From assembly GCA_016278615.1 (NCBI GenBank), contig JADQBM010000008.1, forward strand, positions 1 through 64,000: 64,000 nucleotides of DNA. Direction: 5' to 3'. Position numbers and translations under genes: made by a program. Origin of the DNA: Clostridia bacterium. GTDB taxonomy: Bacteria > Bacillota > Clostridia > Peptostreptococcales > JAAYPU01. The notes below the pieces were generated by a model, which had not been told where the DNA came from, ran no database searches, and saw only the letters and a program-made list of their open reading frames with translations. Below, in pieces: positions 39,648-64,000 of this stretch (the first letter of the stretch is position 1; every line of letters starts with the position of its first letter).

Positions 39648-40634
39648 ATGAAAAATCCAAATTTAGCAATAGTTGGAGTAACTGGAATGGTAGGACGTAC
39701 TTTCTTGAAAGTACTTGAAGAAAGAAATTTTCCTTTTAATCGTCTTTATTTATTTGCATCTTCTAAATCTGCAGGAGAGATGATTCCTTTAAAAGGAAAA
39801 GATTATCGGGTCGAAGAGTTGACTGAGCATTCTTTTGATAGAGACATAGACATTGCTTTATTCTCAGCAGGAGGTTCTATCAGTAAGACCTATGCACCCA
39901 TCGCAGCTGAGCATGGCGTAATCGTCATTGATAACAGTAGTGCATGGAGAATGGATGACACCGTTCCATTAATCGTTCCCGAAGTAAATCCACAAGATCT
40001 AAAAAATCATAAAGGTATTATTGCGAACCCCAATTGTTCTACGATTCAAGCTGTGGTCCCATTAAAGCCTCTACATGATGCATATACTATTAAAAGAATC
40101 ATTTATTCAACTTATCAAGCCGTATCTGGTTCTGGCATCAAAGGGGTCAAAGAATTGGAAGAAGGTTTAAAAGGAAACGATTTGAATCTGGCCTATCCCC
40201 ATCCCATTGCAGGAAATTGTCTTCCACACATTGACGTTTTCTTGGATAATGGTTATACCAAAGAAGAAATAAAAATGATTAATGAAACCATTAAAATTAT
40301 GGGTGATAGTCAGTTGAAAATTACCGCAACTACCGTTAGAGTTCCTGTAAAAGACTGTCACAGCGAATCCATTAACGTAGAATTTGAAAAGCCCTTCAAA
40401 TTAGAAGATGTCAAAGAACTTTTGAAGAATGCACCTGGTATTATACTTCAGGATGATTTTGAAAATAATATATATCCTTTAGCACGGTCTGTCGCGGGTT
40501 GCAATGAAGTATACGTGGGCAGGCTCCGCAGAGATTTTAGTGTTGAAAACGGATTAAACATGTGGGTAGTGGCTGATAACATTCGTAAAGGTGCAGCTAC
40601 CAACGCAGTACAAATAGCTGAATTACTACTATAA
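39648..40634 (+). CDS. asd: Aspartate-semialdehyde dehydrogenase
   Basis: NADPH-dependent reduction of aspartyl phosphate to aspartate semialdehyde, the branch-point precursor for lysine and homoserine. NADP-binding GVTGMVGRTFL is at 10-20, the catalytic Cys130 lies in ANPNCSTIQ, and VSGSGIKG and the His-containing PIAGNCLPHID region follow. At 328 residues it is typical. AGGAGG precedes the ATG. First gene of the riboswitch-controlled lysine operon. Confidence 0.95.
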   Translation: MKNPNLAIVGVTGMVGRTFLKVLEERNFPFNRLYLFASSKSAGEMIPLKGKDYRVEELTEHSFDRDIDIALFSAGGSISKTYAPIAAEHGVIVIDNSSAWRMDDTVPLIVPEVNPQDLKNHKGIIANPNCSTIQAVVPLKPLHDAYTIKRIIYSTYQAVSGSGIKGVKELEEGLKGNDLNLAYPHPIAGNCLPHIDVFLDNGYTKEEIKMINETIKIMGDSQLKITATTVRVPVKDCHSESINVEFEKPFKLEDVKELLKNAPGIILQDDFENNIYPLARSVAGCNEVYVGRLRRDFSVENGLNMWVVADNIRKGAATNAVQIAELLL

Positions 40635-40685
40635 AGCACTTGATGAAAAAAAATATGATTTATTTAAAATGAAAGGATGTCATAT

Positions 40686-41564
40686 ATGAGTATCTTTAAA
40701 GGTTCAGGGGTTGCAATCATAACTCCCTTTGCTGATGGCAAAGTCAATAAAAAAAGTCTTGGTACTCTTCTTGAAAGACAAATAGAACAAGGAACTGATG
40801 CGGTTATTATTTGTGGCACTACAGGTGAAGCCTCTACCATGTCAGATGAAGAGCATTTAGATACGATTAAATTTACAGCGGAAAAAGTCAATGGCCGCAT
40901 TCCTGTTATTGCAGGTGTAGGAAGTAATGATACAGCTCATGCCATATATTTGAGCAAGGAAGCAAATAAAATAGGTGTTGATGGCTTACTTAGTGTGACG
41001 CCCTACTATAATAAAGCAACTCAAAAAGGCTTATTGAACCATTTTTGGTCTATTGCTGACAGTGTCAATATTCCTGTTATTTTATACAACGTTCCCTCAA
41101 GAACAGGTGTTAACCTGTTACCCAATACAATAGCTGAATTATCGAAACACCCAAATATTAAAGGTATCAAAGAAGCCAGTGGGAGCATTACACAAGTCGC
41201 CGAAATATCAAGAGTTACACCCAATGATTTTTACCTTTATTCAGGAAACGATGATATGATTGTCCCGCTCCTTTCTTTAGGTGGCTCTGGTGTTATTTCT
41301 GTTGTGGCAAATATTGCACCAAAAGATACCCATGATATGGTAATGAAATACTTAAATGGTGATACAAAAGGTGCCTGTGAACTTCAATTACGCATGAAGC
41401 CTCTTATAGACGCATTGTTTGTTGAAGTAAATCCCATCCCTGTTAAAACAGCTGTACGCCTTTTGGGCTTGGATGGTGGAGATTTAAGAGCCCCTTTATG
41501 TGAAATGGAAGAAAAGAACTTGGAAATATTAAAAGATGAGATGCATAAATACGGTCTCATTTAA
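40686..41564 (+). CDS. dapA: 4-hydroxy-tetrahydrodipicolinate synthase
   Basis: Condenses pyruvate with aspartate semialdehyde. Schiff-base Lys162 lies in IKEASGS; the catalytic triad residues are Thr45/46 (CGTTGEAS), Tyr134 (LYNVPSRTG) and Tyr108 (TPYYNK); Arg139 binds the substrate carboxylate. 292 residues. ATG 40686 is used because AAAGGA lies 8 nt upstream, while ATG 40677 overlaps that site. A second DapA-family gene occurs at 57378; this one is the biosynthetic copy by its operon context. In a spore former it also feeds dipicolinate synthesis. Confidence 0.95.
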   Translation: MSIFKGSGVAIITPFADGKVNKKSLGTLLERQIEQGTDAVIICGTTGEASTMSDEEHLDTIKFTAEKVNGRIPVIAGVGSNDTAHAIYLSKEANKIGVDGLLSVTPYYNKATQKGLLNHFWSIADSVNIPVILYNVPSRTGVNLLPNTIAELSKHPNIKGIKEASGSITQVAEISRVTPNDFYLYSGNDDMIVPLLSLGGSGVISVVANIAPKDTHDMVMKYLNGDTKGACELQLRMKPLIDALFVEVNPIPVKTAVRLLGLDGGDLRAPLCEMEEKNLEILKDEMHKYGLI

Positions 41565-41599
41565 TGTGTATTACAATTCAATAATAAGGAGCGATAACA

Positions 41600-42370
41600 A
41601 TGTTAAAAGTGATCATACATGGAATCAACGGTCGTATGGGAAAAGTTCTGGAAGAAGTCATAAAAAAAGATTCCGAATTACTAATTGCAGCAGGAATTGA
41701 TTTGAATACCAATAATGAAAATAGCCCCTATCCTATTTACGCTTCTCCCGCAGAGTGCAAGAAAAAGGCTGATGTGGTCATCGATTTTTCTCATCATACT
41801 GCTATTCCTGATTTACTGGATTATTGTTTGTCTACCAATACACCAGTGGTTATTTCAACGACAGCTCTAAGCAAGGAAACTCTCGAACTTATAGAAAACG
41901 CATCTCGAAAAATTCCTGTTTTTCAAAGTGCCAATATGTCCTTGGGGATCAGTTTGGTTCTTGAAATGTTGAAATTATGTGTTCCTATTTTAGAAGACAA
42001 CTATAACATAGAAATTATTGAAAAACATCACTTTAACAAGGTAGATGCGCCCAGCGGAACAGCCTTTCTTCTTGCGGATACCATAAATGACTCATGTAAT
42101 ATTAAAAAGGACTATGTTTACGGAAGACAAGGCACATCCAACGAAAATAAAATAACAGATTTAGGGATTCATGCCGTAAGGGGTGGAAATATGCCAAGCG
42201 AGCATACCGTTTTATTTGCCGCCGATGATGAAGTAATAGAAATAAAACATGCCGCTTTCTCGAGAAATGTATTGGTGCACGGTGCAATAAAAGCAGCAAA
42301 ATATATTGCCACAGCTCAACCCGGACTCTATAATATGTCTTTTTTACTTAACGAAAAAAATAGTATATAA
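41600..42370 (+). CDS. dapB: 4-hydroxy-tetrahydrodipicolinate reductase
   Basis: NAD(P)H-dependent second step of the diaminopimelate branch. The dinucleotide motif GINGRMGKVL is at the N-terminus; the catalytic signature EIIEKHHFNKVDAPSGTA (about 139-156) and the closing GGNMPSEHTVLFA are present. 256 residues, normal for the family. AAGGAG precedes the ATG. Sits between dapA and dapH in the lysine operon. Confidence 0.95.
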   Translation: MLKVIIHGINGRMGKVLEEVIKKDSELLIAAGIDLNTNNENSPYPIYASPAECKKKADVVIDFSHHTAIPDLLDYCLSTNTPVVISTTALSKETLELIENASRKIPVFQSANMSLGISLVLEMLKLCVPILEDNYNIEIIEKHHFNKVDAPSGTAFLLADTINDSCNIKKDYVYGRQGTSNENKITDLGIHAVRGGNMPSEHTVLFAADDEVIEIKHAAFSRNVLVHGAIKAAKYIATAQPGLYNMSFLLNEKNSI

Positions 42371-42404
42371 TTAGAATATAGTATTTAAGAAAGGATTTGA
42401 ACGA

Positions 42405-43121
42405 ATGACAAATAATTCATTAGATTTAATAAACCCCTATGCAATCGCAAAATATATTAAAGAAGCAACAAAAACAACTCCTGCAAAAGCTTACATCAAT
42501 GGGGATATGTCTGAGATTGCCTCAGAAAGTGTTAAAGTTTTTGGTGGAAATGGTTCTTGGATTTTAATTGGCGAGCATAAAGAGATAAAAGCCATTATTG
42601 AGACTTATAAAGAAAAAATTACTTGCTACCATATAGAAAATGATCGTAGAAACTCTGCTATACCTATGTTGGACATTTCAGAGATTGATGCCCGAATTGA
42701 GCCTGGTGCTATCATCCGAGATAGAGTTAAAATAGGCAAACATGCCATTATTATGATGGGATCTATTTTAAATATTGGAACGGAAGTGGGAGAAGGATCT
42801 ATGGTCGACATGAATGCGGTTCTTGGAGCAAGGGTTCTTGTGGGTAAGAATTGCCATGTTGGTGCTGGATCTGTTTTGGCTGGTGTTTTGGAACCCCCCA
42901 ATGCATCCCCTGTTATCATAGAAGATAATGTTATGATTGGAGCAAATGCAGTAATTCTTGAAGGGGTTCGAGTTGGGGAGGGCGCCGTTGTTGCAGCAGG
43001 TGCTATTGTCACAAAAGATGTCCCTGCCAGAAGTGTTGTAGCAGGTTCTCCGGCTAAAGTGATTAAGATGAAAGACGAAAAAACAACTGAGAAAACAAAA
43101 CTTTTAGAGGACCTGCGGTAG
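42405..43121 (+). CDS. dapH: Tetrahydrodipicolinate N-acetyltransferase
   Basis: Acetyl-CoA-dependent enzyme of the acetylated diaminopimelate branch. The N-terminal domain starts with [20 protein letters not shown], typical of the acetylase (DapH) rather than the succinylase; a left-handed beta-helix of hexapeptide repeats covers about 85-215 ([31 protein letters not shown]). 238 residues. Last gene of the operon, followed by a strong terminator. The matching aminotransferase and deacetylase are not in this operon. Confidence 0.93.
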
Positions 43122-54206: not shown

Positions 54207-55403
54207 CTATACTAATTTCTTTAAAACCCGCTCCATTTTATCCATTCCCATTGAAATATTTTCTATTGAGTTTGAATAAGAAATTCTCAGGTTGTTGGGT
54301 GCATAAAAGGCTTCTCCAGGGACCACTGCGATCTGCCCTTCCATCAAGATGACTTCCGCAAGGTCCTTAGGGGTTTTTATGATATGGTTATTTATTCTTT
54401 TTCCAAAATAATATTCTACATTTGGAAAAGCATAAAATGCCCCTTTAGGAGAAATACAAGTAATCCCTTCCATATCATTCAATCTATTAACCATATAGTT
54501 TCGTCTTCTGCCAAATTCTTCTCTCATGGAGACAACATATGCTTTTGTATTGGTCAAAGCCTCAACAGAAGCATATTGGCTGGGGGAATTGGCATTAGAA
54601 GTCGTATGGGACTGGAGGTTCACCATTGCTTTAATTATATCACTGGGTCCCGCGGCATATCCAATCCTCCAACCAGTCATAGCATAGGTCTTCGAGACGC
54701 CATTCACCGTAAGGGTATGATTCTTTATCTCCTGAGACAATGATGAAATAGAAATATGCTCATAATCCTCATAGATCAATTTTTCATAGATTTCATCGGA
54801 AATAATCAAAAAATTATTAGTCACGGCCAAATGACCTAACCTCTCTAATTGATCTTTATTGTAAACGGCACCCGTAGGATTATTGGGTGAATTAATAATA
54901 AGGGCTTTTGTTTTATTCGTAATGGCACTTTCTATTTTACTTACATCTAACGAAAAACCATCTTTCTCATTCATTGGTATTAATTTGGGCACGCCTCCTG
55001 CAAGTTTAATCATCTCAATATAGCTTACCCAGCAAGGTGTGGGAACAAGTATTTCATCTCCCTTATTACAGATGGCCATTATCGCATTAAATAAAGCTTG
55101 TTTCGCACCATTTGTCACAAGAATATCGCATGGCATATAGTTAATATGATTCTCTACAAGAAGCTTATGAGATATGGCTTCTCTCAGATACAAAGCCCCT
55201 TCTGCAGGTGTATATTTTGTAATACCTTCGTTCAAGGCCTCAATTCCTTTTTCAATGATGTTTTCTGGTGTATTGAAATCCGGCTCCCCCAAATTAAAGG
55301 CAATAATATTTTTCTTTTGCCTTTTCATTTGCGCAACTTTTGAAGAAAGGGCTAATGTAGCAGATGGTTCCATATTGTTCATTCTCTGACTGATGTCAAT
55401 CAA
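54207..55403 (-). CDS. Class I/II aminotransferase (aspartate aminotransferase-like)
   Basis: PLP aminotransferase of the AspB/subgroup I-gamma type. NLGEPDFNTPENI near the N-terminus, NSPNNPTGAVY, and the PLP-lysine region NGVSKTYAMTGWRIGY (Lys at about 236) are intact. 398 residues. As last gene of the island it could move an amino group between glutamate and a 2-oxo acid; the exact substrate is not readable. It begins 49 nt after the 4Fe-4S gene, so cotranscription is likely but not certain. GGGGGAGATT precedes the ATG. Confidence 0.85.
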   Translation of the reverse strand: MIDISQRMNNMEPSATLALSSKVAQMKRQKKNIIAFNLGEPDFNTPENIIEKGIEALNEGITKYTPAEGALYLREAISHKLLVENHINYMPCDILVTNGAKQALFNAIMAICNKGDEILVPTPCWVSYIEMIKLAGGVPKLIPMNEKDGFSLDVSKIESAITNKTKALIINSPNNPTGAVYNKDQLERLGHLAVTNNFLIISDEIYEKLIYEDYEHISISSLSQEIKNHTLTVNGVSKTYAMTGWRIGYAAGPSDIIKAMVNLQSHTTSNANSPSQYASVEALTNTKAYVVSMREEFGRRRNYMVNRLNDMEGITCISPKGAFYAFPNVEYYFGKRINNHIIKTPKDLAEVILMEGQIAVVPGEAFYAPNNLRISYSNSIENISMGMDKMERVLKKLV

Positions 55404-55452
55404 TCATAATCTCCCCCATTTCATACAAAAATAAGTAATTATTAGAAATGCA

Positions 55453-55959
55453 TTACTCCTTATCTAATCTTTTCATTGAGACAACATTTTCATAGTGCTC
55501 TTTAGAAAATGTCGCAGAAATTAAAGCCGTATGATCATAAAGATCATGATTGATGACCTTCACAACTCTTCCGACGCAAACAGATTCTCCTAATCGATTA
55601 ACCAGAGAGATGGTTTGGCCTTTTTGGGGAAGCGGCAGATATTCAAATGGGAAGGTTATTAAAGCTTCTTTTTCGTTATAGTTTAAATGGAGTATATAGA
55701 TAGCAAGTCCCGGACACTTTGCGATACAAGTTCCACAGCCTGTACATTGGCTAAAATCAATGGTAGGTTGGTTTGTAATGGGATTGCCTACTTTTATGGC
55801 TCCCTTTGGACAAACTGTCTCACAAGGATTACAAGGTATCTCTTCGGTACACTCTATTATGGGAATTGGCCCACGTTGGTAATCATTTGCTTTGGGAAAT
55901 GCCGTTGACAGCTTGAGTTCCTCCATCGAAGGGGCTCCTATTGTTTTTAAAGTTTGCAT
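55453..55959 (-). CDS. 4Fe-4S dicluster protein of the oxidoreductase complex
   Basis: 168 residues. Two [4Fe-4S] motifs: CNPCETVCPKG with a preceding Cys (about 37-53), and CTGCGTCIAKCPG (about 72-84). The C-terminal 80 residues form an unrecognised beta-rich domain. The N-terminus, LSTAFPKANDYQRGPIPIIECTEEIPC cut short here, is typical of small ferredoxin-like subunits encoded with HcnB-type oxidoreductases. ATG 55959 has GGAGG 9 nt upstream; the reading frame overlaps the previous gene by 77 nt. Likely an electron-transfer subunit. Confidence 0.82.
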   Translation of the reverse strand: MQTLKTIGAPSMEELKLSTAFPKANDYQRGPIPIIECTEEIPCNPCETVCPKGAIKVGNPITNQPTIDFSQCTGCGTCIAKCPGLAIYILHLNYNEKEALITFPFEYLPLPQKGQTISLVNRLGESVCVGRVVKVINHDLYDHTALISATFSKEHYENVVSMKRLDKE

Positions 55960-57064
55960 CTTGCATTTCCTCCCATTTAATTAATATTTCATCTTTTGAC
56001 ATTTTTCTTTTGAGTCCAAATTGACCACATCTTAATAAATTCAACCTTCTCCATTCTTCATTAATGAGCATATCTGCTTTTTCATTATCATAATATCCCA
56101 AAGACCAAGCAGCACTTATACCTGCTAAACGCCCTTCTTCCATTGCGGTACTGGCTTCCTCAATTCCGGATACATCTCCAGCAACATAAATACCTTTGAC
56201 CGTGGTTTCCATATACTTGTTATGGATGGGTACATGTCCTCCCATCTTATCTAAATAAGTAAATTGACAACCCGATAGCCAAGCCAATTCTATAAGAGGC
56301 GTTAATCCCACAGCAAGACAAATGGTATCCACTTCAACAATTCTCTCGCTGCCTTGAACAGTATTCCAATTTGAATCTAATTTCACAATCTCAGCCGCTT
56401 CAACATGTTCTTTTCCCAATGCCTGTTTCACCGTATAGCCGGTATAAAAGGGGACTCCTGCTCTTCTTACTTTTGCCGTATGAACCCCATACCCACCAAG
56501 AACAGGTGCGGCCTCAAGGATCCCTACCACTTCTGCACCAGCTTGCAGCAATTGATATGAAACAATAACCCCCACATTCCCAGAGCCAATCATCATAATC
56601 CTTTTCCCCGGTAATACTCTGTGACAATTCATCATAGTTTGGGCAGCGCCCGCCCCCATAACCCCCGGCAATGTCCATCCTTCAAAAGGAATGGAATTTT
56701 CTGTTGCTCCCGAGGCAATAATAATTTTTTTTGCTTGTATACAATGGGATTTCTCTTTTTGTTTGGTAATCCAGATTGATTTATCTTGATCCATTCCACA
56801 TACTTCAGAATCAAGCCATACTTCAATGCTCAACTCCTCTGTTTCCTTTAATAGCTGTTCTCCAATATGAATGCCTCTAATACCTGCTTTATGCTCTTTA
56901 GAACCAAAAAATTTATGGATCTGCTTAAACAATTGCCCCCCCGGTTGATTGTTTTCATCTATTACCAATACCTTTGCACCCGCCTTAGCACATTCGATTG
57001 CTGCAGAGAGTCCAGCCGGGCCTGCGCCAACAATTACAACTTCATATTCATTCATCCTGGTCAC
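55883..57064 (-). CDS. FAD/NAD(P)-dependent oxidoreductase (HcnB-like)
   Basis: 393 residues related to the beta subunits of opine, D-hydroxyproline and proline dehydrogenases. FAD-binding VVIVGAGPAGLSAAIE is at about 10-25 and a second dinucleotide site MMIGSGNVGVIV near 157-168; a C-terminal VAGDVSGIEEAS binds the flavin. Start is GTG 57064 or ATG 57055; both overlap the end of the [2Fe-2S] gene. The overlaps with both neighbours and the Fe-S subunits indicate one multi-subunit complex that passes electrons from the oxidase subunit to a carrier. Confidence 0.85.
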   Translation of the reverse strand: MTRMNEYEVVIVGAGPAGLSAAIECAKAGAKVLVIDENNQPGGQLFKQIHKFFGSKEHKAGIRGIHIGEQLLKETEELSIEVWLDSEVCGMDQDKSIWITKQKEKSHCIQAKKIIIASGATENSIPFEGWTLPGVMGAGAAQTMMNCHRVLPGKRIMMIGSGNVGVIVSYQLLQAGAEVVGILEAAPVLGGYGVHTAKVRRAGVPFYTGYTVKQALGKEHVEAAEIVKLDSNWNTVQGSERIVEVDTICLAVGLTPLIELAWLSGCQFTYLDKMGGHVPIHNKYMETTVKGIYVAGDVSGIEEASTAMEEGRLAGISAAWSLGYYDNEKADMLINEEWRRLNLLRCGQFGLKRKMSKDEILIKWEEMQDANFKNNRSPFDGGTQAVNGISQSK

Positions 57065-57374
57065 TTCTCTCCCAACTTCCTAAACCTTCTTGAGTCTTAA
57101 TAACCATTCCATCTTCTACAGGGGTAATACAAGTCCTTACATTAGGTATGCCGTCAACCATCATCACACAGTCCGTGCATCTTCCAATACCGCAATAAAG
57201 CCCTCTGGGTTTATTGTTCTTTTTAGTATATCTAAATGTTTGAATGCCATTGGCTATTAATGCCGCTGCGATCATTTCCCCTTCGTATGCCTTTATTTCT
57301 TTGCCATCATAAAACACTGTAACGATTCTTCTTCTGCTCTCATCCCCTAAAATTGGATGTTTCATAACTCGCAT
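57048..57374 (-). CDS. [2Fe-2S] subunit (HcnA / SoxA N-terminal type)
   Basis: 108 residues with the four-cysteine pattern of the family in YCGIGRCTDCVMMVDG and VRTC (Cys-x4-Cys-x2-Cys-x11-Cys). IVTVFYDGKEIKAYEGEMIA at the N-terminus is the usual beginning. Such proteins are the small electron-transfer subunit of heteromeric amine or imino-acid dehydrogenases. Overlaps the FAD subunit gene; begins 3 nt after the DapA-like gene. Confidence 0.85.
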   Translation of the reverse strand: MRVMKHPILGDESRRRIVTVFYDGKEIKAYEGEMIAAALIANGIQTFRYTKKNNKPRGLYCGIGRCTDCVMMVDGIPNVRTCITPVEDGMVIKTQEGLGSWERSDQDE

Positions 57375-57377
57375 ATG

Positions 57378-58256
57378 TCAACCTCTCAACTTTAATTCTG
57401 AAAGGCAATTTTTCACCAACGCTATGATTTCATCGGAAGCCCCTGTCAGTGGCAACCTACATCCACCAACATTCATACCACTAAGATTTAGAGCCGTTTT
57501 AATGGGTATGGGACTGGTGGTGGCAAAGAGGCAATCAAATAGTTTCGTTAATTTTTTATTAATTGCAATGGCTTCACTATAATTCCCTATGAAATACTCA
57601 TAAATCATCTGCTCCATTTTTAATCCCACAATATTTGATGCAACACTTACGACACCATAAGCACCAACTGCCAAACTAGGCAGTGTTAAAATATCATCTC
57701 CCGTGTATATAGAAAAATCATCGGGTACTACACAAACCATTCTAGATAGTTGAGCAGAATCTCCACCCGCTTCTTTCAATGCAACAATATTGTCAATCTC
57801 AGCTAATTTAGATAAAGTTTCAACAGACATGTTCACACCGGTTCGTCCTGGCACATTATACATCATGATAGGTAAATCCGTATTCTTCGACACTTCACAA
57901 AAGTGTGCATAAATGGATTCTTGATTTGGTTTATTGTAATAAGGGACAATAACCAATAGCCCATCCACTTGGCATTCGGAAATGCTCTTTATGTTTTCAA
58001 TTGTTTTTCGAGTGCAGTTTGTTCCTACCCCTGCAATAACAGGAATGGTCACATTTTCCTTAACCGTATTTAATAAAGGGACTACTTCTTCACTTGTTAT
58101 GGTTGGACATTCACCAGTGGTTCCATTAATCAATAACGCGCCGCTGCCTTCATTTTCCATTTTTTTTGCATGTTCAGCCACTTTGTCATAATTGATATTC
58201 AACTTTTCATCAAAAGGAGTAACCATTGCAGTAATAATTCTGCCCCATTCCTTCAT
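57378..58256 (-). CDS. DapA-family lyase/deaminase (second paralogue)
   Basis: 292-residue TIM-barrel Schiff-base lyase. Lys161 (ALKEAGGD), Tyr133 and Arg138 (YNVPGRTG), the Thr pair 46/47 (NGTTGEC) and Tyr in VPYYNK are all kept, so it could act as dihydrodipicolinate synthase. Its position in an amino-acid oxidase operon, and the separate biosynthetic dapA at 40686, argue for a catabolic role. The same family contains Delta1-pyrroline-4-hydroxy-2-carboxylate deaminase of hydroxyproline breakdown. Sequence alone does not decide between these. Two hairpins lie just upstream at 58297-58398. Confidence 0.8.
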   Translation of the reverse strand: MKEWGRIITAMVTPFDEKLNINYDKVAEHAKKMENEGSGALLINGTTGECPTITSEEVVPLLNTVKENVTIPVIAGVGTNCTRKTIENIKSISECQVDGLLVIVPYYNKPNQESIYAHFCEVSKNTDLPIMMYNVPGRTGVNMSVETLSKLAEIDNIVALKEAGGDSAQLSRMVCVVPDDFSIYTGDDILTLPSLAVGAYGVVSVASNIVGLKMEQMIYEYFIGNYSEAIAINKKLTKLFDCLFATTSPIPIKTALNLSGMNVGGCRLPLTGASDEIIALVKNCLSELKLRG

Positions 58257-58296
58257 ATGCCCTGACCTCCATCATCACAATTATTTTATCTCATTA

Positions 58297-58398
58297 AGCA
58301 GCTCTAAGACTCCTACCTCTATAGGTAGCGCAAGAGCTGCTAAATTCGAAATTTGTTCGTCTTGCCATCAGTGGAGAGTCTGAAACTCCCACTGATGG
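58297..58398. repeat. multi-hairpin element within the operon
   Basis: Outer stem AGCAGCTCT/AGAGCTGCT (58297-58305, 58333-58341) with inner CTACCT/AGGTAG; then AAATT-CGA-AATTT (58342-58354); then CCATCAGTGG/CCACTGATGG (58365-58374, 58389-58398) with inner GAGT/ACTC. It lies between the BFD-type gene and the DapA-like gene and may attenuate or stabilise parts of the operon transcript. Confidence 0.65.
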
Positions 58399-58401
58399 GT
58401 C

Positions 58402-58653
58402 TCACTTCATTAACCCTAACTTGATTGGTCGAACTGGCTTTCTATAACTGGAAGGTTTTATATTCTCCAGTTTCTGGCCTGTTTCCTTTGAAAGTATCCT
58501 CTCAATGGCCTTTCGGCAAGTTCTCCCTTGACACAACCCCATGTTTGCCCGGGAAAATTTTTTTATTTCATTGACAGTACTTGCACCACTTGCTATTGCT
58601 TCAATAATCTCATCTTCTGTTATTTCCTCACATCTACATATTATCTTACTCAT
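58402..58653 (-). CDS. BFD-like [2Fe-2S] protein
   Basis: 83 residues. The four Cys of the BFD fold are present as CRC (6 and 8) and CQGRTC (about 41-46), in the sequences ICRCEEITEDEIIEAI and ANMGLCQGRTCRKAIERIL. In homologous systems this domain is often fused to the HcnB-type FAD subunit; here it is a separate gene. It probably serves as an electron-transfer module of the oxidase complex. Starts 21 nt after the regulator gene. Confidence 0.85.
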   Translation of the reverse strand: MSKIICRCEEITEDEIIEAIASGASTVNEIKKFSRANMGLCQGRTCRKAIERILSKETGQKLENIKPSSYRKPVRPIKLGLMK

Positions 58654-58674
58654 AAATTTTTCACTTCCTATAAA

Positions 58675-59415
58675 TCATTCTTCTGTTTCACTGTTTTTAT
58701 ATCTGCCCCAAAACGCCAAAACATCTTTCATTAGATTATCCAAATGCTCTTCCATAATATTTTTGGCAAGTAACTCATCTCCTTTTTTTATCGCTTTATA
58801 TATCATTTCATGATATTTGCTGTAAGGAGAATTAACCTGTTCCCTTAAGTCCTCAAAAATCCTTGATTGTTGCTTGAAAGTAGCGATTATATTATACAGG
58901 GATTCCAAAACAATATTTCTGGATGCTTTGGCAATGGTTTTATGAAATTCAATATCTTCCTCTGCAATACTCTCATTGTTGACAGATTTTATTTTTTGTG
59001 TTTTGAGAATATCTTCTAAGTGATCTAATTCTTCTTCAGTAATATATTTCGTCGCCAAAACAACCGTTTCTCTTTCGATGGCTTTTCTGGCCTGGATAAC
59101 CATACTAAAATTCTCTAATAATTCACTTGTTATGATTTGATCAATTTTTTGTTTATGAAAATTAATTTTGTTAATGGTTTCAGCTTTTTGAATCGCTGTT
59201 CTACCCTCTTCTGTAATGTTTCTACCTTTATTTTTTTCTTTTTTTAAATAATGATTGTTCTCTAATTTAGACAACACTCTGCCAATTGTTGCTGTACTGA
59301 TCTCAATATTTTTCTCTTTTAATCTGCTTTCAATGACCCAGGAGCCTAAAGGCTTATCAGAAGAAGATATTATTTTTAAAATAGAAATTTCATATTTATC
59401 AAGGATTTGCTGCAT
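58675..59415 (-). CDS. FCD-domain transcriptional regulator with RNase R-type winged helix
   Basis: 246 residues. The C-terminal part (about 100-235) is an FCD ligand-binding domain with metal/ligand residues in EDIEFHKTIAKASRN, YHEMIYKAI and MEEHLDN. The N-terminus is not a GntR helix but fits the RNase R/NrpR-type winged helix (IGRVLSKLENNHYLKKEKNK then GRNITEEG). The start ATG 59415 has AAAAGGTGATTATC upstream. Third gene of the operon and the best candidate to bind the palindromes at 62186 and 62341. The ligand is probably the substrate or an intermediate. Confidence 0.85.
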   Translation of the reverse strand: MQQILDKYEISILKIISSSDKPLGSWVIESRLKEKNIEISTATIGRVLSKLENNHYLKKEKNKGRNITEEGRTAIQKAETINKINFHKQKIDQIITSELLENFSMVIQARKAIERETVVLATKYITEEELDHLEDILKTQKIKSVNNESIAEEDIEFHKTIAKASRNIVLESLYNIIATFKQQSRIFEDLREQVNSPYSKYHEMIYKAIKKGDELLAKNIMEEHLDNLMKDVLAFWGRYKNSETEE

Positions 59416-59498
59416 GATAATCACCTTTTTCCATTAAATTTTATTTTGAAACAACAATAAGATCTTATACTTGTCAACAACAAATCCTTGAAAAAAGT

Positions 59499-60944
59499 CT
59501 ATTCTATATCGCTTTGTTGTTTTTGTCCAGTTATCATTGAAATGACAATGATTAATATGGCTGATATGGCTAATGCAATCAAGACTCGGTTGGCACCTAA
59601 AGCCGAGACCTGTGTAAGAGCAGCTCCTACTACAATTCCAGTTCGAGCGCCCCAAGGTGTTACTTTACTATTTTTCATCCCTTTTTCATGGGCTTCATCA
59701 GGTCTTTGCTTCCAAAGCAACCCAATTATCAATAATGGTACTAATCCTGCACCTGCCATTTGGTACGCGGCAGAAAACAAACTTAATATAGAGCTTGCGT
59801 AGATGGCTGCCACAGCTGCAAATACTCCTACTACTACCGTAAGTATTTTTGCATATCTTACTAAATCTTTATCTGTTGCCTCAGTTTTAAATGGCTTAAT
59901 TAAGTCATTTACAACTAAGATGGCTGCAGAGTTCAAGTTTGAGTCTGCTGAAGACATTCCGGCCGCAAGAACCAGTGCAAATATCATAGCCGCTATAACC
60001 GGTGGTACATAATTCATCATAAACCATGGCATAGCCGAATCTGGTTCTAATCCTTGATTCATAGTAAAAATAATCATTCCTACAAAAGCGGTCAACATAA
60101 CTGCTAAAATGGCTATAATACCACTCCATAATAACCCGTGTTTCGCTGTTCTTGAATCTTTAGAAGCGAAACATCTTTGCCAATATATTTGTGCAACAAT
60201 GATTCCAATACACCCTGTAACAAATTTTGTAATTAAACCCATATAATCGGTCTCGGCCCCTCCTAAGAAAGACCACATATCCGGCCTATTTAATTCATTT
60301 AACCTTGTTCCAATTTCAGCAATGGAAAAGTTAACGGGCATAAATGCGTAAATATAGAATATGACTCCGAAAATTAAAACCAACACCCCTTGAAGCAAGT
60401 CTGTCCAGGCAACCGAATAAATGCCCCCTAAAGTTGTATACAATATAAATACTGCTGAAAAAAGGAAGATGATGGGAATAGGGTTAACGCCTGTTATAAT
60501 ATTAAAAATACTTCCTAAAGCTTTCCCTTGTCCACCTACCCATGCAATCATAATCATAGAAGCTAAAACACCTGCTAGAGCTCTTGTTACTCTGTCTTTT
60601 GTAATTAAATCATCCAGCAACTCAGGAAAAGTATTATAGGTAAATTTTCCTGCAAATCCCGCCAAGAATAGTGCAAATATAATTTTAGATCCTTGCTCAC
60701 CTAATATGAATGCCATCCATGGCAACCCAATAGCATAACCTTTTCCGGCATGGCCAACAAAATTACCCACTCCCATAATAGTAGCAAATTGTGTAAAAAA
60801 TATCAGATACATGGGAAAAGATTTATTCCCAATAGCATAACTGGAGAAGCTCTGACCTGCCTGATCTTTGAAACGCAATGAAATAGCTAAGAATGCACCA
60901 CACATTATAATCGTAACAATCCACAGAATAGTTCCTAACGTCAT
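59499..60944 (-). CDS. Sodium:solute symporter (SSS family)
   Basis: 481 residues and about 13 membrane helices. The family signature appears as YTTLGGIYSVAWTDLLQGVL; AAGMSSADSNLNSAAILVVND matches the Na+-binding TM8 region of PutP-type transporters. Its location directly behind the FAD oxidase gene makes an amino or imino acid such as proline or hydroxyproline a likely cargo, but other SSS substrates cannot be excluded. Lies 63 nt after the oxidase gene. Confidence 0.9.
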   Translation of the reverse strand: MTLGTILWIVTIIMCGAFLAISLRFKDQAGQSFSSYAIGNKSFPMYLIFFTQFATIMGVGNFVGHAGKGYAIGLPWMAFILGEQGSKIIFALFLAGFAGKFTYNTFPELLDDLITKDRVTRALAGVLASMIMIAWVGGQGKALGSIFNIITGVNPIPIIFLFSAVFILYTTLGGIYSVAWTDLLQGVLVLIFGVIFYIYAFMPVNFSIAEIGTRLNELNRPDMWSFLGGAETDYMGLITKFVTGCIGIIVAQIYWQRCFASKDSRTAKHGLLWSGIIAILAVMLTAFVGMIIFTMNQGLEPDSAMPWFMMNYVPPVIAAMIFALVLAAGMSSADSNLNSAAILVVNDLIKPFKTEATDKDLVRYAKILTVVVGVFAAVAAIYASSILSLFSAAYQMAGAGLVPLLIIGLLWKQRPDEAHEKGMKNSKVTPWGARTGIVVGAALTQVSALGANRVLIALAISAILIIVISMITGQKQQSDIE

Positions 60945-61007
60945 AATAAACCCTCCTTTTTTTCATAATTCTATTTGAAGATTTGGAATCCTCTACACAC
61001 CCTCCTT

Positions 61008-62168
61008 TCATCCAAATCTACTAATATTCAACTCATCAATAGCCATTGAAGTTTTTTCATGGCACACCAATTGGGACAATAATTTTCCTGTAATGGGCGC
61101 CAAAGCAATGCCATCTCCGCCGTGGCCTGTTGCAATAAAAAACCCTTCATTTTCTTTTACCTCACAAATTATAGGTTTTCCATCTTGAGATAAGGGTCGA
61201 AAACCAGCAAAAGATCGGATCATGTTTATCTTTTTTAGAATAGGAAAAAAATATGTGATTTGTTTTGTCAGTGTTTCAATAGCTTCATAAGTTGTATTTT
61301 TATTAAAGTTCCCCTTTTCTCTTGTGCTTCCAATTAAATAATTTCCATCAGCTGTTTGACTAAAAGCTAGACCTATACCCAATCTTTTATCAATGGAATC
61401 TGCTTCAATTAATTCCGGTTTCAATTTAGAAACAATATAATCTGAACTCCAAATATTTTCTTTTCCCAGTGAAGGCAACTGCTCTGTTACCAAGATCTGC
61501 CCTTTCAACGGGGTTACTGGAATATCCACATGGACAAGCTTCCCAATGTCAGAAGACCATGATCCCGCAGCATTTATTATGGTCTCCGTTTCAATACTGC
61601 TGCCATCATCAAATCTTATCTGCCACCAACTGCTGAGTTTATTAATCTCACTGATGTTCTTATTTCTGTATAAATCCATGCCCATATCTAAATTGCTCTT
61701 TAGAAAAGCTTTCATTACTCTCATAGGATCTACTTGGGAATCTCTTGTTCCAAAAGTGGAAGCAATAATCCCTTCTTTAACATAAGGGTGCTTTTTCTTA
61801 ACTTGTTTCTTATCAATTATTTCGATGTCTAAACCATACTTTCTTTGAGAATCAACATAGCTTTCCATTAAGCCCAAATGCTCTTTTTTATCAATTAGTA
61901 TCATACCACCTCGTGTATGAAACCCAATATCCATTCCTAAATCATTGGATAAATTCTTATAAATCTCTAAACTCTCAATGGCAAGTTCAAGACTAATACC
62001 TGGTGCCTTAGATTGTAAAAGGATCATATCATCACATGCGCCTGAAGCGCCTGCACCTATTTCATTTTTTTCTACTAAAGATACTTTTTTTCCTCTTTTT
62101 AAAAGATAGTACGCACAGGATAGGCCTATAATGCCTCCTCCAACGACCACTGCATCATATGTTTTCAT
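61008..62168 (-). CDS. FAD-dependent amino/imino acid oxidoreductase (DAO family)
   Basis: 386 residues with Rossmann VVVGGGIIGLSCAYYLLKRG (about 7-26), the ATG-type FAD motif INAAGSWSSDIG, PLKGQILVTEQ and the C-terminal ATGHGGDGIALAP. This is the architecture of glycine/sarcosine oxidases, D-amino-acid dehydrogenases and the alpha subunit of D-hydroxyproline or proline dehydrogenase. With HcnA-, HcnB- and BFD-type subunits in the same operon it is probably the substrate-oxidising subunit of a dehydrogenase complex. First gene of the operon; its promoter carries operator 62186-62201. Confidence 0.87.
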   Translation of the reverse strand: MKTYDAVVVGGGIIGLSCAYYLLKRGKKVSLVEKNEIGAGASGACDDMILLQSKAPGISLELAIESLEIYKNLSNDLGMDIGFHTRGGMILIDKKEHLGLMESYVDSQRKYGLDIEIIDKKQVKKKHPYVKEGIIASTFGTRDSQVDPMRVMKAFLKSNLDMGMDLYRNKNISEINKLSSWWQIRFDDGSSIETETIINAAGSWSSDIGKLVHVDIPVTPLKGQILVTEQLPSLGKENIWSSDYIVSKLKPELIEADSIDKRLGIGLAFSQTADGNYLIGSTREKGNFNKNTTYEAIETLTKQITYFFPILKKINMIRSFAGFRPLSQDGKPIICEVKENEGFFIATGHGGDGIALAPITGKLLSQLVCHEKTSMAIDELNISRFG

Positions 62169-62185
62169 TTACGTTTCCCCCATTG

Positions 62186-62201
62186 CTCATCATGTGATGA
62201 G
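62186..62201 (-). promoter_or_regulatory. operator copy 1 (oxidase side)
   Basis: CTCATCA-TG-TGATGAG, a perfect 16-bp palindrome. It lies between the -10 box of the minus-strand promoter and the oxidase gene. Read on the minus strand it matches operator copy 2 at 17 of 18 positions. Confidence 0.8.
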
Positions 62202-62213
62202 TGCTTATGCTAT

Positions 62214-62243
62214 ATAATATCTCCATGAAGTATTACTTGTCAA
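62214..62243 (-). promoter_or_regulatory. sigma-A promoter of the oxidase operon
   Basis: Minus-strand TTGACA (62243-62238), 18-bp spacer, TATTAT (62219-62214). The operator begins about 12 nt downstream of the -10. Confidence 0.85.
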
Positions 62244-62301
62244 TATAAAATCTGAAAATTTTAAATTATTTAAATATTCCCATTTTATTAGATATTTCCT
62301 G

Positions 62302-62331
62302 TTGACTCTGGGCTTATATGTCATATATAAT
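62302..62331 (+). promoter_or_regulatory. sigma-A promoter of the AOR gene
   Basis: TTGACT (62302-62307), 18-bp spacer, TATAAT (62326-62331). It mirrors the divergent promoter in spacing and operator position. Confidence 0.85.
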
Positions 62332-62340
62332 AAAATCACT

Positions 62341-62358
62341 ACTCATCACATGATGAGT
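62341..62358 (+). promoter_or_regulatory. operator copy 2 (AOR side)
   Basis: ACTCATCA-CA-TGATGAGT, a perfect 18-bp palindrome starting 9 nt after the -10 box of the AOR promoter. Confidence 0.82.
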
Positions 62359-62387
62359 CAATCATCCGAATAAGGGGGCGTTTATAA

Positions 62388-64000
62388 ATGTCAGGTAAAC
62401 TATTGATCATTGACCTTACCTCAGAGAAGATATCCCAACAAATAATATCCAAAGAAATATACAAAAAGTATATCGGGGGAAAAGGATTAGGTGCTTATTT
62501 ACTAATGAATATGTTGGAAAAAGGAACCGATGCATTGGCAGCTGAAAACCCTTTAATCTTTCTAACAGGTCCTATTACTGGCAGTCTCTTCCCTACTTCC
62601 GGAAGGATGGTTGTTGTAAGCAAATCTCCCTTAACAGGCACTTTTACAGATTCTCATGTTGGAGGTTTTTTAGGAAATGAAATTAAAAAAACAGGTTATG
62701 ATGGCATTATCATTACGGGAAAATGCCATGATAGAAAGTATTTGTGGATACAGGATGAAAAGGTGGAATTCAGAGATTGCTCCCATCTATGGGGTGAAAA
62801 AGTATCAATAACTGTAGATCAACTCCGTCAAGAAACGGACCTCAAAGCAAGGGTCGCATGTATCGGTCCTGCTGGAGAAAATCTTTCTTTAATTTCCACT
62901 ATTATGATGGACAAAGACAGTGACAAAACCAGAGCGGGCATTGCTGGGCGAACTGGTTTAGGTGCTGTAATGGGTTCCAAAAACTTGAAGGGTATAGTTG
63001 TTATGGGGACTCATAAGCTCTCATATGAAAATGAAAGCCTTATGAAGGACAGTCGACAAGATACTGTTAATGTTATAAAATCAACAGATTTTATGAAAGT
63101 TAGAAATCAATACGGTAGTGCCAATCTCATAGGCCCTATGAATGAACAGGGCTTTCTGCCTACCCGAAATTTTAAAGAAGGCTTTATTGAAAATGGTGAA
63201 GAACTGTACTGCGAGAATATGAACAGACATAAAAGCAGAAACGTCACCTGTTTTAACTGCCCCATTGTATGTGGTCAGATTATTAAGACAAAAAAAGAGA
63301 CTGAAATAAAAATAGAATATGAAAGCATTGCACTATTAGGCAGTAACAATGGCATCACAGGCTTTATGGATGTAGCTGATGCTTGTTTGATTTGTAATGA
63401 ATTGGGAATTGATACCATGTCAGCAGGTGTTGTCATAGGTTTTGCTATGGAATGCAAAGAAAAAAATTTAATTCATACAGGTCCCGATTTTGGCGATGCA
63501 AAAGGTCAACTGGAATTGCTTGAAGATTTGGCCTATCGTAAGAATTTAGGAAAAATATTTGCGGATGGTGTAAGACGTGCTTCTGAAAAAATAGGCCAAG
63601 GCAGTTACAAGTTTGCCATTCATGTAAAAGGTCTTGAAATGGCAGGCTATGAACCGAGAACCTCATGGGGAATGGCTTTAGCTTATGCAACAGCTGATAG
63701 AGGTGCTTGTCACCAAAGATGTTGGACCGTAAACACTGAAAGGACCGGAGGATTAAAGATGTTCTCCTTTGAAGATAAACCTGAATTCATTATAGACATT
63801 CAGAATGAAAGAGCTGCCGCTTTTTCTATGCTTATATGTGACTTTTTACCCTTTGAACAAACAAGTATGCTGTCTGCATGGGAAGCTGTAATGGGCATGC
63901 CGCTTTCTGAGAAAGAATATATTTTAGCAGGAGAAAGAATCTGGAATTTGATAAAACTGTTCAACATCCGAGAAGGTTTAAGTAGAAAAGAGGATATCCT
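62388..64000 (+). CDS. Aldehyde:ferredoxin oxidoreductase (partial, runs off window)
   Basis: Tungsten or molybdenum bis-pterin enzyme that oxidises aldehydes to acids and reduces ferredoxin. 537 codons are present without a stop, so the C-terminus lies outside. IGGKGLGAYLL (29-39) and GRTGLGAVMGSKNLKG (187-202) are family landmarks. The [4Fe-4S] ligands are C288, C291 and C295 (CFNCPIVC), the same numbers as in Pyrococcus AOR, with C484 (MLICDFLPF) a candidate fourth ligand. E312 and H442 (DRGACHQR) match the catalytic Glu and His. AAGGGGGCG precedes the ATG. It shares its operator with the divergent oxidase operon, suggesting it oxidises an aldehyde made there. Confidence 0.92.
   Translation, partial: MSGKLLIIDLTSEKISQQIISKEIYKKYIGGKGLGAYLLMNMLEKGTDALAAENPLIFLTGPITGSLFPTSGRMVVVSKSPLTGTFTDSHVGGFLGNEIKKTGYDGIIITGKCHDRKYLWIQDEKVEFRDCSHLWGEKVSITVDQLRQETDLKARVACIGPAGENLSLISTIMMDKDSDKTRAGIAGRTGLGAVMGSKNLKGIVVMGTHKLSYENESLMKDSRQDTVNVIKSTDFMKVRNQYGSANLIGPMNEQGFLPTRNFKEGFIENGEELYCENMNRHKSRNVTCFNCPIVCGQIIKTKKETEIKIEYESIALLGSNNGITGFMDVADACLICNELGIDTMSAGVVIGFAMECKEKNLIHTGPDFGDAKGQLELLEDLAYRKNLGKIFADGVRRASEKIGQGSYKFAIHVKGLEMAGYEPRTSWGMALAYATADRGACHQRCWTVNTERTGGLKMFSFEDKPEFIIDIQNERAAAFSMLICDFLPFEQTSMLSAWEAVMGMPLSEKEYILAGERIWNLIKLFNIREGLSRKEDI

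Follow-up and report, generated by a model that had tools for sequence, protein, structure and literature searches.

At the right-hand end of a 64,000-nucleotide stretch of DNA from a Clostridia bacterium (GenBank assembly GCA_016278615.1, contig JADQBM010000008.1, positions 1 to 64,000; the whole stretch is hereafter called the window), there is an island of genes for a symporter, a DAO-type flavoprotein complex, a DapA-family enzyme, an aminotransferase, and a divergently transcribed aldehyde ferredoxin oxidoreductase (AOR). The question that this locus raises is which compound the encoded proteins might break down. A sequence-only reading of the window had proposed that D-hydroxyproline is broken down to 2-oxoglutarate semialdehyde, which the AOR would oxidize to 2-oxoglutarate. 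Here, our comparison with related loci makes a different assignment likely, namely, that the island is a single substrate-induced catabolic regulon for the import of a C7 acid, its conversion by the flavoprotein complex, the cleavage of 4-hydroxytetrahydrodipicolinate (HTPA), and the oxidation of aspartate semialdehyde.

Exchange of the AOR for two lysine-pathway enzymes

When 85,000 species genomes were searched with the island DAO protein, we obtained 37 loci (loci and genomes are designated below by L and G numbers), which come mostly from anaerobic Bacillota and Spirochaetota, and a close DAO was present in 9 of the 394 genomes of the order. The conserved core of these loci comprises the genes for DAO, an importer, an FCD regulator, BFD, DapA, HcnA, HcnB, and a 4Fe-4S protein. 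At the place of the AOR gene, most of the loci that lack it carry a gene for an aspartate-semialdehyde dehydrogenase (ASD) of ~336 residues and/or an aspartokinase (AK) of ~340–390 residues. The ASD was assigned to TIGR01296 (459 bits against a cut-off of 324 for the one copy scanned), and the AK has an AA_kinase domain, with no ACT domain detected in the two copies scanned. Moreover, Cys135, Gln162, Arg267, and His274 are kept in every ASD, as are Lys8, Ser39, Glu119, Arg198, and Asp202 in every correctly read kinase (the wrong-frame row of L077 was left out).

More conspicuously, the two arrangements are mutually exclusive. Among 41 loci, an AOR alone is found in 9 and ASD and/or AK alone in 26, both together occur in none, and neither is found in 6 (Fisher p 1.4e-5, with relatedness not corrected for); left out of this count was an unrelated AOR (29% identity) that lies 4 kb beyond the cluster in L066. 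On the DAO tree, the distribution amounts to four changes between AOR and ASD/AK, three of them forced by well-supported branches, and sister species can differ, with the AOR in Sedimentibacter saalensis and ASD plus AK in S. hydroxybenzoicus. The simplest reading of this replacement is that both options perform the same step, from aspartate semialdehyde to aspartate. Judged from this exchange, the aldehyde of the pathway is very probably aspartate semialdehyde and not 2-oxoglutarate semialdehyde, as had been suggested earlier, and we propose that the island AOR is an aspartate-semialdehyde oxidase. Of the papers found that name both AOR and aspartate semialdehyde, none is, by title and abstract, about an AOR acting on this aldehyde.

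Active site of the DapA-family enzyme

We compared DapA residues at the positions of Escherichia coli dihydrodipicolinate synthase (DHDPS) 44, 45, 107, 133, 138, and 161. The island enzyme reads T-T-Y-Y-R-K, which is the same as in E. coli DapA and in all 38 cluster relatives (39/39). Arg138 of DHDPS binds the carboxylate of aspartate semialdehyde. As hydroxyproline references, we took four plasmid clusters (Priestia megaterium, Bacillus badius, Paenibacillus, and Streptomyces), each of which holds racemases, an NAD(P) aldehyde dehydrogenase (ALDH), and a DapA-family protein. These four proteins read S-L-N-Y-D-K, S-T-Y-Y-T-K, S-L-Q-Y-D-K, and S-L-A-Y-D-K, with Arg138 lost in all of them, while the pSymB region, taken as a hydroxyproline control, gave no DapA match. 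Two of the hydroxyproline-cluster genes (L089:1480-2361 and L092:11664-12554) are annotated as dapA of the lysine pathway despite having no Arg138, and these labels are a probable misannotation.

A hydroxyproline substrate is further disfavored by the absence of a racemase. No match to the proline racemase/epimerase family (PF05544) was found in the whole genome (3.5 Mb, 98.97% complete), so that the lack of an epimerase, reported earlier for the window, holds genome-wide, and a tblastn search of ~40 related loci did not find a proline racemase either. The island also contains no ALDH, just as had been noted.

Phylogeny of the DAO subunit and its look-alikes

In the DAO tree, the island protein falls in a clade of its own, apart from the hydroxyproline DAOs, with 100/100 support, even though the DAOs of the hydroxyproline clusters are its nearest plasmid relatives (30–33% identity). 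Two clusters with a proline racemase, a DAO, and an AOR of ~725 residues (L041 and L044) at first looked supportive of the hydroxyproline route; they proved to belong to another DAO group with 27–29% identity to the island DAO. In these relatives from the order (L041:6184-13386 and L044:1610-11316), the DAO/HcnAB/4Fe-4S genes stand with the proline racemase gene, and L038, L039, and L043 are similar without a racemase. All five clusters continue with a ferredoxin-like protein, an AOR of 639–761 residues, and mostly a ThiS-like protein, and in such clusters, an AOR may really take part in an anaerobic pathway of the proline or hydroxyproline type. Another kind of relative is a second, solitary DAO copy in Geosporobacter (L101 and L102; 49–51% identity), which has no partner genes adjacent to it.

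Operators and extent of the regulon

The 219-base gap between the DAO and AOR genes carries the palindrome ACTCATCANNTGATGAGT twice, each copy lying just downstream of a promoter-like site that faces either DAO or AOR. Operator 1, before DAO (62185..62202), contains the exact 16-base core CTCATCANNTGATGAG, and operator 2, before AOR (62341..62358), reads ACTCATCACATGATGAGT. Just upstream of the former is TTGACA-18-TATTAT on the minus strand (62214..62243) for the DAO operon, and just upstream of the latter is TTGACT-18-TATAAT on the plus strand (62302..62331) for the AOR, both promoter-like by consensus match only (11/12 positions each). In the 3.5-Mb genome, the exact core CTCATCANNTGATGAG occurs at the two island sites only, and a search of Geosporobacter and Anaerosolibacter-type genomes again gave exact operator matches within the cluster only. 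No operator match at two mismatches was obtained in 0.68 Mb of shuffled loci.

The operator was found in most of the relatives that bear the FCD gene, and it was not found at DAO modules without one. It lies before both ASD and DAO in L052–L055, heads the ASD-AK-DAO operons of L048, L057, L065–L067, and L070, and, in the majority of spirochaete loci, precedes the gene of the TAXI importer. In L056, L058, L059, L061, and L063, it is positioned before AK, between ddh and AK, which places ddh and dapB outside the regulon. Read from the operator positions, the regulon spans the steps from the importer to aspartate and excludes dapB and ddh. The FCD protein is a probable repressor that would act on the two divergent promoters by way of these operators, and the coregulation of the AOR with the DAO operon, which the sequence-only reading had assumed, is supported by the palindrome at both promoters.

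Proposed pathway

In the pathway that we propose, the symporter would import a C7 acid with a pyridine- or piperidine-2,6-dicarboxylate skeleton, and the five-part complex (DAO, HcnB, HcnA, BFD, and 4Fe-4S) would bring it to the level of HTPA in one redox step. Such a step is called for because only the complex and the DapA-type enzyme stand between the importer and the semialdehyde. The DapA-type enzyme would then act as a retro-aldolase that splits HTPA into pyruvate and L-aspartate-4-semialdehyde, and we regard this cleavage within a catabolic regulon as quite probable. The sequence-only reading had counted a DapA-like protein that only makes dihydrodipicolinate as evidence against itself, and the DHDPS site observed here comes near to that case, apart from the direction of the reaction, which is probably the reverse. 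Next, the AOR would oxidize aspartate semialdehyde to aspartate with the reduction of ferredoxin, and the aminotransferase would convert aspartate to oxaloacetate. For the last oxidation, most relatives would run ASD and AK in reverse, yielding NAD(P)H and ATP. The net idea is thus that the first steps of lysine synthesis would run backwards in anaerobes.

The catabolic direction is suggested because TRAP-TAXI and SSS systems are importers and an AOR favors the oxidation of aldehydes, and also because a phosphoenolpyruvate carboxykinase gene adjoins ASD in L075 and the regulon is sparsely distributed (9/394 genomes of the order). As for the imported acid, two kinds of substrate fit, either a more oxidized one (dipicolinate) or one that is more reduced and hydroxylated (4-hydroxypiperidine-2,6-dicarboxylate).

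Dipicolinate and its alternatives

Dipicolinate is our tentative choice as the most likely single substrate, which would make the regulon an anaerobic dipicolinate pathway. In this case, the complex would be a reductase that converts dipicolinate to dihydrodipicolinate, which hydrates to HTPA, and the AOR would hand the ferredoxin electrons back to the reductase, leaving the regulon redox neutral. The reduction of dipicolinate (2 e-) offsets the oxidation of the semialdehyde (2 e-), pyruvate oxidation likewise offsets fumarate reduction, and the sum C7H5NO4 + 4 H2O = C2H4O2 + C3H6O2 + 2 CO2 + NH3, from dipicolinate to acetate and propionate, balances. A dipicolinate-fermenting coculture, the only known case of such growth, is reported to form acetate, propionate, CO2, and NH3 (PMC9826295, citing Seyfried & Schink 1990), and the match of the redox balance and the sum with these products makes dipicolinate worth testing first. 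According to the same source, dipicolinate accounts for 5–15% of spore dry weight and the enzymes of its fermentation are unknown (PMC9826295). In our literature search on anaerobic dipicolinate or diaminopimelate pathways, we found only a statement that the dipicolinate pathway is unknown.

Several points weigh against the pathway as drawn here with dipicolinate. Residue conservation in the DAO did not point to any basic residue, invariant and specific to the clade, by which a pocket for a second carboxylate could be recognized, and DAO-fold enzymes are known as oxidases and are not known to act as pyridine reductases. Some spirochaete operons hold a two-cysteine Asp/Glu-racemase-like protein, which is odd for the achiral dipicolinate, and about six loci have neither AOR nor ASD/AK nearby. 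Finally, a few loci (L075, L079, and L125) have dapB or a DapB-ACT fusion as a neighbor of the cluster genes, hinting at a tetrahydrodipicolinate step there. In two of these, both from spirochaetes, DapB carries an ACT pair at its C-terminus and its gene immediately precedes that of the DAO (L075:8620-9858 and L079:277-1512). Seven further loci (L123–L126, L128, L130, and L132) combine DAO/HcnAB/BFD/4Fe-4S modules with the two-cysteine racemase-like protein and have no adjacent DapA or FCD gene; they are often accompanied by DctM-type permeases and by a sigma-54 regulator whose N-terminal domain has an NAD fold.

Some of these points suit an oxidative entry, in which the complex would oxidize 4-hydroxypiperidine-2,6-dicarboxylate or 4-hydroxydiaminopimelate to HTPA, in parallel to D-hydroxyproline dehydrogenase, with DapA and AOR acting afterwards. 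The DAO complexes of the hydroxyproline clusters, whose DAOs are the nearest plasmid relatives, are oxidative; the racemase-like gene of some operons would suit a chiral substrate; and dapB would not be required. Yet, such compounds are generally regarded as rare in nature, whereas anaerobes from two phyla carry the regulon, and four electrons per substrate would be left over, which leaves this entry a rather doubtful possibility. Less likely still is a catabolism of diaminopimelate, by which the meso form would be oxidized at its D-center to tetrahydrodipicolinate and DapB would work backwards to HTPA, followed by DapA and either ASD/AK or AOR. While about ten loci have dapB and/or ddh adjacent to the cluster, and the DapB-ACT fusion directly before DAO keeps this reading open for L075 and L079, the operator between ddh and AK sets ddh and dapB outside the regulon, dapB is missing from most loci, and a reverse DapB reaction with NADP+ is generally held to be strongly uphill.

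A biosynthetic role, with the cluster making dipicolinate as the counterpart of the Bacillus subtilis spoVFA-spoVFB-asd-dapG-dapA operon, seems improbable to us, although the enzyme set is alike (asd, a DapG-like kinase, and dapA) and, among 15 cluster-bearing genomes, 13 have Spo0A above its cut-off and none has the dipicolinate synthase DpaA above its own (G754 scored 288 of 320 bits). Against it stand the spirochaetes, which are generally known as non-sporulating and carry the operon with a TRAP importer, the presence of the operon in only 9 of the 394 genomes of the order, and G148, which carries the cluster and shows no Spo0A above the cut-off, though it is 86% complete. Moreover, an AOR in exchange for ASD and AK suits an oxidation and hardly the production of aspartate semialdehyde from aspartate. 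The hydroxyproline route was rejected and is in our view very improbable: its gene content does resemble the hydroxyproline clusters overall, but the genome has no racemase, the island no ALDH, the DHDPS site is kept, the AOR swaps with ASD and AK, and the DAO forms a separate clade. What stands of the sequence-only reading is that the cluster is coregulated and of a catabolic type, that its dehydrogenase complex is of the imino-acid type, and that it includes a DapA-family enzyme and, for the oxidation of the aldehyde, an AOR; the substrate and the aldehyde that it named are not supported.

Gene content and genomic setting

Profile searches found all of the genes named before at 54207-62168 on the minus strand, together with the divergent AOR, and added the FCD regulator, which was absent from the earlier list. 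Downstream from the operators on the minus strand, these are the DAO-type FAD oxidoreductase (61008..62168; PF01266), proposed as the catalytic subunit of the complex; the SSS-type Na+:solute symporter (59499..60944; PF00474), the proposed substrate importer, in place of which the spirochaete loci have a TRAP-TAXI importer; the FCD/HTH_12 transcription regulator (58675..59424; PF07729 and PF08461); and the BFD-type 2Fe-2S subunit (58402..58653; PF04324 and PF17806), which is kept in related loci. They are followed on the same strand by the DapA-family enzyme with its complete DHDPS active site (57378..58256; PF00701, and TIGR00674 with 306 bits against a cut-off of 206), the HcnA-type 2Fe-2S subunit (57048..57374; PF13510), whose gene overlaps that of HcnB, and the HcnB/SoxA-type subunit with FAD and NAD(P) folds (55883..57064; PF07992), which overlaps its neighbor genes and has sarcosine oxidase alpha as the nearest PDB structure. 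The 4Fe-4S ferredoxin-like subunit of the complex (55453..55959, minus strand; Fer4 matches) is kept in nearly all related loci, and 50 bp behind its gene is the class I aminotransferase (55403-54207, minus strand; PF00155). The top PDB matches of the latter are aspartate aminotransferases, its reaction is probably that from aspartate to oxaloacetate, and an aminotransferase also adjoins the cluster in L034/L046, L047, and L048.

On the plus strand, the tungsten-type AOR of 604 residues (62388..64202; PF02730/PF01314) runs beyond the window, which ends inside the gene at 64000. It has AFOR_N and AFOR_C domains with the CxxCxxxC motif and the distal Cys, and its nearest PDB chains are AORs in which the cluster cysteines are aligned. 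Extension of the contig to the right, as suggested earlier, gave the end of the AOR gene and, directly behind it, a ThiS-family protein of 71 residues (64199-64414); the proline-racemase-fold epimerase sought there is absent genome-wide. The flanking genes appear housekeeping-like from their sequences, with recG and coaD types on the left and thiN, rpe, rsgA, and prkC types on the right. Within the window there is also a complete lysine-pathway cluster, asd-dapA-dapB-dapH (39648-43121), which makes the island DapA an extra copy. The genome has a single biosynthetic ASD and a single long aspartokinase, with no others, and nine AOR matches (paralogues) were seen in the whole genome of G000.

Implications

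The enzyme families are all known, and we did not find their combination and direction described in the searchable literature. If the proposal is true, lysine-pathway enzymes would serve energy gain in reverse, the reverse aspartokinase reaction would be a new ATP-forming site, and aspartate semialdehyde would be a new physiological AOR substrate. The regulon also offers a named and cultivable test case for dipicolinate fermentation (Sedimentibacter, Anaerovirgula, and Geosporobacter), and the DapA-family genes of DAO clusters can be told apart as two kinds by one active-site residue.

Comparison with known systems

The island is like the trans-4-hydroxyproline clusters (DAO/HcnAB/BFD dehydrogenase, DapA-family Δ1-pyrroline-4-hydroxy-2-carboxylate (Pyr4H2C) deaminase, ALDH, and 4HypE) in combining a heteromeric flavoprotein complex with a DapA-family enzyme and a subsequent oxidation of an aldehyde, but differs in its lack of racemases and ALDH, its DHDPS-type DapA, its AOR or ASD plus AK module, and its separate DAO clade. 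With the entry to lysine and diaminopimelate (aspartokinase, ASD, and DapA), the regulon has three reactions and intact active sites in common, whereas its second gene copies, importer, kinase with no ACT domain detected, AOR option, and proposed reverse direction are different. The dipicolinate operon of B. subtilis, spoVFAB-asd-dapG-dapA, similarly groups asd, a DapG-type kinase, and dapA with an enzyme that works at the level of dihydrodipicolinate. In contrast to that operon, the island has no SpoVFA/B and instead has the DAO/HcnAB complex, an importer, and the FCD regulator, and its relatives extend to a phylum for which sporulation is not known. A DAO beta part with HcnB/HcnA-type alpha parts is shared with the dye-linked L-proline dehydrogenase PDH1 from Pyrococcus (PDB ID: 1y56) and with heterotetrameric sarcosine oxidase, from which the island differs in substrate and pathway and by the addition of a 4Fe-4S subunit and DapA. 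Lastly, the island AOR has its domains and iron-sulfur cysteines in common with the tungsten AORs (1aor and 9mqx) and would be set apart from them by its proposed substrate, aspartate semialdehyde.

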